Assembly: GCA_027486845.1 (NCBI GenBank)
Contig: JAIXOL010000042.1
Location: 1 to 64,000 of the forward strand
Length of the DNA stretch: 64,000 nt
Origin: Cytophagaceae bacterium
GTDB taxonomy: Bacteria > Bacteroidota > Bacteroidia > Cytophagales > Spirosomataceae
Direction of reading: 5' to 3'
Positions 25,564 through 62,226 of the stretch are shown here, piece by piece (the stretch's first letter is position 1; every line of letters starts with the position of its first letter). The position numbers were made by a program, and so were the translations under genes. A model generated the notes under the pieces. That model was not told the DNA's origin. It saw nothing but the letters and a program-made list of their open reading frames with translations, and did not search any database.

Positions 25564-25596
25564 ATGTTTTGTCATATATAATCGAATCTCCTATCT
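25550..25596. terminator. Stem-loop overlapping the end of the Rdx gene
   Basis: AGATAGGAGATT (25550-25561) and AATCTCCTATCT (25585-25596) are perfect inverted repeats around 23 bases. The left arm includes the Rdx stop codon, and the right arm lies just before the end of the leftward cytochrome gene. No T-run; a convergent-gene structure rather than a classical terminator. Confidence 0.45.
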
Positions 25597-25608
25597 CGAA
25601 TCCAGTAT

Positions 25609-58719: not shown

Positions 58720-59658
58720 ATGTCAATTTCTAAGAATCTGACTGAATACTGTAAAAAAAGTAACCTAATAATTATTGTCGGACCAACGGCGGTAGGTAAA
58801 ACCGATTTGTGTGTAAAACTCGCTAAGGAGTTTGATACAGAAATCCTCTCGTGCGATTCTCGACAATTTTATAAGGAATTAAGCATCGGTACGGCCAAAC
58901 CTACCACCCAAGAAATGTTAGGCGTGGCACATCATTTTGTTGATTCTCACGGTATCAATGAATATTACAGTGCAGGAGATTTCGAACGAGATGCCATCAA
59001 ATTACTCGAAAATGACATTTTTAAGCGGAAAAATATAGCAATAATGACTGGCGGCTCTGGACTTTTCGTAAAATCCATAACCGACGGACTCGACGAAATG
59101 CCCGAAGCACCACTCGCATTAAGAGAAGAGTTGATGCAAAGATTGGAAAAAGGCGAACTCGAAATAATGGCAGAAGAACTCCGAAAACTCGACCCCGCAT
59201 ATAGCGAAACAGCTGATTTACAAAATTCTCAAAGAGTAGTTCGGGCTTTAGAAGTTTGTTTGAGTACTGGCCGACCATTTTCTTCATTTCATAAAAAAAA
59301 TAATATCGAAAGAAGTTTCAATATTATCAAAATTGGTATCGAACGCCCACGTGAACAGCTTTACGAACGGATAAATCTCCGCATGGATTTGATGTTAAAA
59401 AATGGTTTGATAGAAGAAGTGAAGGGTTTGATAGATTACCGAAATCATAATGCTTTGCAGACTGTTGGCTATAAAGAAGTGTTTGAATTCCTCGATGGAA
59501 ACTACAATTTTGCCACAATGGTAGAGCTTTTGAAGCGAAATTCACGTCGGTATGCCAAACGCCAAATGACTTGGTTTAAGAATCAAGACGCTTTTGAATG
59601 GTTTTATGGCACTGATTTTGAAGAAATAAAGACACACATTCTCTCGAAATTACAATGA
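58720..59658 (+). CDS. miaA: tRNA dimethylallyltransferase, first MiaA paralogue
   Basis: 312 residues, normal MiaA length. It transfers a dimethylallyl group to N6 of A37 in tRNAs reading UNN codons. P-loop GPTAVGKT (21-28), the conserved Asp-Ser-Arg-Gln segment CDSRQFYKELSIGTAKPTT (45-63), HHFVDSHGINEYYSAGDFER, and the C-terminal NALQTVGYKEVFEFLDGNY and RNSRRYAKRQMTWF are all present. The compact form lacks the insert found in the second copy at 61138-62226. Its stop codon overlaps the ATG of the next gene (ATGA), so they are co-translated. Confidence 0.93.
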   Translation: MSISKNLTEYCKKSNLIIIVGPTAVGKTDLCVKLAKEFDTEILSCDSRQFYKELSIGTAKPTTQEMLGVAHHFVDSHGINEYYSAGDFERDAIKLLENDIFKRKNIAIMTGGSGLFVKSITDGLDEMPEAPLALREELMQRLEKGELEIMAEELRKLDPAYSETADLQNSQRVVRALEVCLSTGRPFSSFHKKNNIERSFNIIKIGIERPREQLYERINLRMDLMLKNGLIEEVKGLIDYRNHNALQTVGYKEVFEFLDGNYNFATMVELLKRNSRRYAKRQMTWFKNQDAFEWFYGTDFEEIKTHILSKLQ

Positions 59659-61137: not shown

Positions 61138-62226
61138 TTAATGATTAAGGGCGTCGAACAATTGAGTTGTCATTTCTTCAACTGTTTGCATTCCATCTAA
61201 CCAATTGATTTTGATACCTTTACGCTCCATACTTCTGAAAAAAGTCATTTGCCGTTTGGCATATTGGTGAATTGCTATTTCGAGGCGTTTGGTCATTTCA
61301 TCATAAGATAAATCACCAACTAAATATTCGGTAATAAACTTATATTCAAGGCCATAGAAAATTAATTTTTCGGCCGAAATTCCACTTTCGAGCAAAGATT
61401 TTACCTCTTCAATCAGCCCGTTTTCTAGTCGGTCGTGTAAGCGTTTGGTGATTCTTTCTCGGCGAATTTCTACTGAAATGGAAATACCAAAATTCTGAGT
61501 TCTGAATAGTCCGCCGTACGGTTCTGAACGGTCCGCCGTGCGGTTCTGAACAGTCCGCCGTGCGGTTTTGAACAGTTCGCCGTACGGTTCTGAACGGTCA
61601 ACAGTGCGGTTCTGCTTCTCGAATCTCGAATCTTGTATCTCGAATGCGGAACGCCGCCCGCCCACTTCTCGAGTCTTAAATTCTCCAATTTCTATCGCAC
61701 GAATCAATCTTTTTCGTGTCGAAATATCAGCATTTTGATTTACTAGGGCATATTTTTTTTGAAAAATCTTCTCTAATTCCTCATCAGTTTTCAGAGATAA
61801 TTCATTTCTAAAGTCCTGACTGATAGGCACTTGTGTATCTTCATAGTTTCGCAAAACTGCTTCAATATACATTCCAGTTCCGCCACACAAAATCGGGATT
61901 TTATTGTGAGAAATAATATCTTGATAAGCTTTCTGAAAATCTCTTTGAAAGAACGCCACATTGTAGCTATCTCCCGCTTCCACAATATCGATTAGATGTA
62001 CACCTTCAATGCCCGCTAACCAATCTTGATTTTGCTTAAAAAACGGCAAATATTCTTTATAATCTTTGCCCGTTCCGATGTTCATTCCTCGATAAACTTG
62101 TCGGCTATCGGCACTGATGATTTCGCCATTAATTTTTGATGCTATATTGACCGCCAACTTCGTTTTTCCCGAAGCTGTTGGGCCCAAAATCACAATTAAA
62201 GGTTGATTATTCTGTTTGTGTATCAT
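61138..62226 (-). CDS. miaA: tRNA dimethylallyltransferase, second MiaA paralogue with an in-frame repeat insert
   Basis: 362 residues, about 50 longer than the first copy. P-loop GPTASGKT (15-22), ADSRQVYRGMNIGTGKDYKE (39-58), CGGTGMYIEAVLRNYEDTQ and the C-terminal MTKRLEIAIHQYAKRQMTFF are intact. The extra length lies at residues 186-245, between RLIRAIEIGEFK and FGISISVEIRRERITKRL. It is encoded by a 22-bp tandem repeat (61499-61608) plus TCTCGAAT-type repeats. The inserted peptide has a 22-residue superperiod (NRTVDRSEPYGELFK versus NRTADRSEPYGGLFR). The insertion falls in a surface linker before the tRNA-binding part, so the enzyme may still work. Its start overlaps the end of the upstream gene by 20 bases. 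Confidence 0.87.
   Translation of the reverse strand: MIHKQNNQPLIVILGPTASGKTKLAVNIASKINGEIISADSRQVYRGMNIGTGKDYKEYLPFFKQNQDWLAGIEGVHLIDIVEAGDSYNVAFFQRDFQKAYQDIISHNKIPILCGGTGMYIEAVLRNYEDTQVPISQDFRNELSLKTDEELEKIFQKKYALVNQNADISTRKRLIRAIEIGEFKTREVGGRRSAFEIQDSRFEKQNRTVDRSEPYGELFKTARRTVQNRTADRSEPYGGLFRTQNFGISISVEIRRERITKRLHDRLENGLIEEVKSLLESGISAEKLIFYGLEYKFITEYLVGDLSYDEMTKRLEIAIHQYAKRQMTFFRSMERKGIKINWLDGMQTVEEMTTQLFDALNH
61499..61608. repeat. Five tandem copies of a 22-bp repeat inside miaA2
   Basis: Units at 61499-61520, 61521-61542, 61543-61564, 61565-61586 and 61587-61608, based on GTTCTGAACGGTCCGCCGTG plus CG, with a partial sixth start. Each unit contains the small palindromes GTTC-T-GAAC and often CCGTACGG. 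Because 22 is not a multiple of three, successive units are read in successive frames, and none brings a stop. Flanking 61616-61645 carries a shorter TCTCGAAT repeat. Confidence 0.93.

Follow-up and report, generated by a model that had tools for sequence, protein, structure and literature searches.

The window, that is, the whole stretch of 64,000 nucleotides that was analysed, carries two genes for MiaA-type tRNA dimethylallyltransferases, and tandem repeats lie within the coding sequence of one of them, miaA2. The features are as follows.

58720..59658, + strand: second MiaA paralogue, free of the repeat (ORF call and MiaA profile match)
61138..62226, - strand: miaA2, a tRNA dimethylallyltransferase-like ORF of 362 aa (ORF call and MiaA profile match)
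61494..61507, - strand: ATTCAGAACTCAGA, two heptad units at the 3' end of the 22-bp array on the coding strand
61499..61614, - strand: 22-bp array of 5.3 units, the coding form of element 1 (a 7-bp repeat plus the 15-nt core ACCGCACGGCGGACC)
61617..61645, - strand: second 7-bp array of 4.1 copies, ATTCGAG on the coding strand and TCTCGAA on the + strand (tandem-repeat call; heptad matches at 61618-61645)
61644..61661, + strand: element 2 core ATGCGGAACGCCGCCCGC, antisense to miaA2 (36 places in its own genome with up to three mismatches)

The product of miaA2 was identified as MiaA with the TIGR00174 equivalog profile (177.6 bits, cut-off of 148.65 passed) and aligns with MiaA homologues on either side of the insert. 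A tandem-repeat search of the window gave a period of 22, 5.3 copies, 85% matches and 0% indels at 61499-61614, in agreement with an earlier note on this DNA that had described an exact-length 22-bp repeat inside miaA2. The span given in that note, 61499..61650, is correct for the 22-bp array up to 61614 and not beyond, 61617-61661 being occupied by the second 7-bp array and the element 2 core. The units are translated in three frames in turn (NRTVDRSEPYGELFKTARRTVQ, then NRTADRSEPYGGLFRTQ) within the 362-aa ORF, also as described. Pairwise identity of the five units is 15-21 of 22 bases (1-7 differences). The claim that no frame holds a stop was not upheld: one of the three sense frames contains a single TGA, in the most diverged unit, and the antisense frames contain 1, 2 and 3 stops. 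An array of perfect consensus units is stop-free in all sense frames; alone, this is unremarkable because the same was found for 12248 of 20000 shuffled units.

Over the 167 bp that start at 61499 the GC content is 57%, against 37.5% for the window. RNA folding of the whole insert was no stronger than that of shuffles (z -1.05; 32 of 200 shuffles folded as well), and an Rfam search of the window returned only a tRNA. AlphaFold2 models of the two MiaA proteins of the window had a mean pLDDT of 39.7, too low for use. Elsewhere in the window, a 3-mismatch match to the ATTCGAG heptad array was seen between two called genes (25581-25601, - strand).

Since 22 is 1 modulo 3, loss or gain of one unit shifts the frame, as the earlier note had stated, and truncates the product from 362 to 244 or 279 aa; a change of three units keeps the frame. 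In simple-sequence contingency loci, coding sequence likewise contains tandem units whose length is not divisible by three, and the note had proposed such a locus here, with single-unit slippage turning MiaA2 off and on and the other paralogue (MiaA1) as back-up. Exact runs of up to 15 nt common to adjacent units are in line with this proposal. The miaA2 units differ from those of contingency loci in being long and diverged rather than near-identical, with no known length variant, and the host is a conserved enzyme. No unit-number variant was found among the data, in which the array is known from one genome and each species of the genus is represented by one. The longest exact self-match in the array is 22 nt at a frame-preserving distance of 66 bp, compared with 15 nt at 22 bp, a faint hint of growth by a three-unit step and against single-unit slippage.

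The MiaA2 loop in Emticicia genomes

The insert lies in the loop between the conserved RAIEI and FGI segments, which has 67 residues in the window's genome (G000) and 23-29 residues in nine of the ten other genus genomes (29 in G005; 27 in G010, G006 and G007; 26 in G008; 24 in G003; 23 in G001, G002 and G009). MiaA dimethylallyltransferases of solved structure (such as PDB 3d3q and 2qgn) have a short linker at this position. The repeat thus lengthens the protein, as had been noted, although by about 40 residues over the usual loop and not by about 50. The loop of G004 has 37 residues and contains heptads; one stretch of it matches the 22-bp unit at 21 of 26 bases, a score reached by none of 5000 shuffles (best shuffle, 18), and G004 therefore keeps a single decayed unit at this site. 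Apart from that unit, the 22-bp array is missing at the miaA2 site in all ten other genomes, so that the insert is not fixed in all relatives, a case that the earlier note had raised.

A tree was built from 498 columns of MiaA2 (263) and PrmC (235), with the loops and the ABC ATPase set (see below) left out. G000 pairs with G006, followed by G004, G010 and G005. Because the sister G006 is without the miaA2 element and the more distant G004 has a remnant, either the element was lost in G006 or it was gained twice.

The ratio dN/dS was estimated in seven genomes over the 292 codons that lie outside the loop; where G007 or G008 is a member of the pair, dS is above 1. For miaA2 of G000 it was 0.256 against the sister G006 and 0.109-0.131 against five other relatives; the remaining genome pairs gave 0.076-0.165. 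Purifying selection acts on the codons flanking the loop and is slightly relaxed at most. The value of 0.256, above the 0.09-0.13 of most other pairs, would be expected if the repeat were a scar in a decaying pseudogene, but the ORF is intact, its score exceeds the MiaA cut-off, the ratios against the five other relatives are low, and each of the 10 other genus genomes has retained the two MiaA genes. Decay of MiaA2 is accordingly very improbable. The retention of both genes also bears on the proposed role of the paralogue at 58720-59658 as a buffer for the loss of MiaA2: this repeat-free copy exists, and a pair kept in all of these genomes argues against its being a special buffer.

The repeat peptide could instead have been selected for an effect on MiaA2, for example on its hold on tRNA. 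A 61-residue stretch here contains 13 K+R and 9 D+E, and the repeat replaces a loop that adjoins conserved segments. The loop, however, varies freely within the genus, and in G005 it contains a different repeat-like segment, with a stretch containing GGGGAGGG that is similar to one in G005 PrmC. The repeat peptide NRTADRSE and its variants were moreover found in unrelated proteins (below). Selection for an arginine-rich loop is thus unlikely.

Elements 1 and 2 in other genes

Element 1 consists of a GC-rich palindromic core flanked by 7-bp repeats, (ACTCAGA)n. The units do contain small palindromes, as the earlier note had stated, and its suggestion of a dispersed family was borne out. With up to three mismatches to the 22-bp unit, the five array units and one further copy were found in the own genome (reversed-pattern control, 0), and copies occur in the genus: CCGTACGGCGGACTGTTCAG, searched in the same way in 11 genus genomes, gave 12 places (reversed control, 0), of which four are in the miaA2 array, one is in prmC of the own genome and four are in heptad-bearing ORFs of G004, G005 (two) and G006. 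The other three (G006:C4, G003:C1 and G005:C44) lie in ordinary genes without heptads and were taken as chance matches. An exact search of species genomes with CCGYACGGCGGACYGTTCAG, in a set that possibly excludes the own genome, returned four Emticicia records and one from a planctomycete, the last also read as chance. A further search for element 1 gave 38 places, and contexts were examined for 31, the other seven being in G001, G002, G003 and G009. Ten of the 31 were in miaA2, in prmC or at places covered by the previous search. In the other 21 contexts, 13 places were between genes (12 with the ACGGG core and one variant), three in heptad-bearing ORFs and five in heptad-free ORFs (L178, L186, L195, L198 and L206); these five were considered chance.

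The coding form of element 1 was found in five gene families: miaA2, PrmC (identified with TIGR03534), an ABC ATPase, a D-amino-acid-dehydrogenase-like protein (in G006; score below the cut-off of that model) and an unnamed ORF (in G004, G005 and G010) with no match in Pfam or NCBIfam. Each copy is in a loop, in frame and on the sense strand, and the host ORFs are open and conserved.

The PrmC loop has 25 residues in the window's genome and 21-23 in 10 relatives, all 10 without the element. The element has largely replaced the linker rather than simply being inserted, because the net gain is only 3 residues. For the ABC ATPase, the comparison covered G000, G004, G005, G006, G007, G008, G010 and EMPMRC01. 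The loop has 21 residues in G008, where it is short and element-free, 37 in G010, 50 in the own genome, 54 in G005, and 61 in G006 and EMPMRC01; G004 has heptads without the core, and no element was seen by eye in G007. CysN (at residue 211, just past its GTPase domain of residues 2-208) and a deaminase (close to its start) also contain heptads without a core. Three loops of G005 PrmC (L306) contain unusual segments, apparently of different repeat families as judged by eye; in two of these loops the extra length over relatives is clear. Loops that accept one repeat seem to accept others too.

These findings return to the proposed switch in miaA2. In the other enzymes element 1 is present as single copies, in which slippage is impossible, and its occurrence in loops of unrelated enzymes, the absence of the array from 10 of 10 other genomes, the 1-7 differences among 22 bases and the purifying selection described above all stand against a contingency locus, which we regard as improbable.

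The element 2 core was found at its 36 places against 1 for the reversed control. Among the 27 matches listed, 15 are inside ORFs, 1 is at an ORF start and 11 are between ORFs. Five of the seven listed matches with at most one mismatch are inside ORFs, in both orientations: miaA2, dihydropteroate synthase, two Uma2-type proteins and a TonB receptor. Compared with the best solved homologue, dihydropteroate synthase and LpxB have a few extra residues at element 2, as does NadA, in which the core match is weak. Some matches with 2-3 mismatches are probably chance, such as L290 (by eye a tryptophanyl-tRNA-synthetase motif) and L305. Many element-2-like cores (CAGCGGAACGCCGCCCGC), some closely paired, were observed at about 2.80-3.37 Mb of G003:C1, in a genome without ACTCAGA heptads.

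Heptad arrays and the intergenic form of the core

Three consecutive ACTCAGA heptads, with up to three mismatches, matched the own genome 63 times (control, 0) and occur in 7 of 11 genus genomes. These matches were examined as 37 distinct heptad arms, three of which are within called ORFs. With genes taken as mechanical ORF calls of at least 80 aa and a limit of 27 nt that was set after inspection of the data, 12 of the 37 arms have a start codon this close to their end (null, 2.6) and 14 have a reversed stop this close (null, 2.7); in both cases 0 of 2000 placements gave as many.

The intergenic form of the core, searched for as CCGCACGGGCGGCCCCGTC, was found at 111 places in all, and contexts were examined for 19 in the own genome and 27 others. 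The 19 were obtained with up to three mismatches (reversed control, 0), and 17 are clearly between called genes; of the exceptions, L113 overlaps a called ORF start and L249 lies within a called ORF, 13 codons from its start and closely followed by another ATG. At seven of the 19 places a start codon follows the end of the core at 12-27 nt (mean of the null, 1.26; no placement among 2000 reached this number), and at four a reversed stop follows at 8-16 nt (null, 1.28; reached by 65 of 2000 placements). Among 30 loci, three of them in the own genome, 24 are between genes; the remaining six, none of them from the own genome, are in called ORFs: two are exact G009 copies, three lie 6-13 codons from the ORF end, and one is a 3-mismatch match in an ordinary gene. 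The intergenic form is thus mostly outside genes, with exceptions. The exact G009 copies (L209:1501-1519 and L219:1501-1519) are in short ORFs adjoining a transposase-like ORF (named by eye), and by eye the transposase gene is interrupted at these copies.

At the following loci the intergenic core YCGCACGGGCGRCCCCGTC, in many cases with no ACTCAGA heptads beside it, was seen 11-19 nt upstream of the start codon; the genes concerned are unrelated.

Other Emticicia genomes: L211, L221, L223, L231, L234, L237
Own genome: L105, L242, L245, L246, L250

This placement could reflect a leader element or an insertion preference. No Rfam match was found in eight loci holding intergenic cores.

The core strings fold when taken alone. 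In 48 distinct contexts, bases 1 and 12 of the intergenic core were C-G in 25, T-A in 19 and C-A in 4, so that pairing was kept in 44 of 48; two subfamilies could account for this pattern without repeated change. By eye, the inner stem of the coding form is one pair shorter (ACGG/CCGT compared with ACGGG/CCCGT), and the coding string folded alone prefers a CCGC/GCGG stem. A core of 15 nt leaves the reading frame of the 7-bp array unaffected. Possibly, though with considerable doubt on our part, Emticicia has a single palindromic family with two sequence forms. One (YCGCACGGGCGRCCCCGTC) would be intergenic, with a tendency for its 3' end to adjoin start or stop codons. The other (ACCGCACGGCGGACC) would be the coding form, exactly 15 nt long, which could be gained or lost in a 7-bp array within a gene without change of frame. 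The coding form would then spread between genes as a preformed loop module, multiplied in miaA2.

Origin and meaning of the insert

The insert in miaA2 is probably an in-frame form of a dispersed selfish or neutral repeat, amplified in a variable loop that tolerates it. It would be a composite of two dispersed palindromic elements in a loop tolerant of length. Element 1 may have begun, whether by arrival or by formation in place, as a single coding-form unit with heptads, a state still seen in G004, and would then have been amplified to five units in this lineage, with element 2 and its own heptads alongside. The enzyme would thereby have a longer, presumably flexible loop joining two conserved segments. 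Element 1 would be kept in genes only in the sense orientation because the antisense array has stops in all frames, and only a frame-preserving total length would be kept because the C-terminal half is conserved. Most likely the insert is neutral or mildly costly and does not act as a switch.

Two known systems are similar in part. Rickettsia palindromic elements are described in PMC10969869 as dispersed palindromic repeats of about 150 bp, found between genes and in frame in unrelated conserved genes. By this description, the Emticicia repeats resemble them in dispersal and in location, both intergenic and in frame within unrelated conserved genes, and differ in consisting of 18-22-bp cores and 7-bp repeats, in having core forms that differ between genes and gaps, and in the tandem array in miaA2. 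The heptamer direct repeats of the TAACTGA type, as presented by MacGregor (2015; PMC4679880), form lineage-restricted 7-bp arrays, many just upstream of start codons and some inside ORFs, mainly at protein ends; they were reported also from five Bacteroidetes. The Emticicia arrays are alike in being dispersed, lineage-restricted 7-bp direct repeats just before start codons and in some ORFs, whereas their heptad is ACTCAGA, often in inverted pairs and joined to GC-rich cores, and their place in genes is within the loops of conserved enzymes, not mainly at the ends of proteins. In the open-licence literature, nothing was found linking miaA, a tandem repeat and phase variation, nor on heptanucleotide tandem repeats in Bacteroidetes beyond MacGregor (2015; PMC4679880); among the matches listed for Emticicia genome repeats, none concerned this repeat as judged by title and start of abstract.

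An out-of-phase repeat in a gene is thus not necessarily a switch. Outside Rickettsia, short dispersed repeats lengthen or replace the loops of several conserved enzymes in frame, and at corresponding sites sister species differ in whether the repeat is present. These paired states bear on how repeats enter coding sequence, on whether a coding-adapted form evolves and on what such loops cost.
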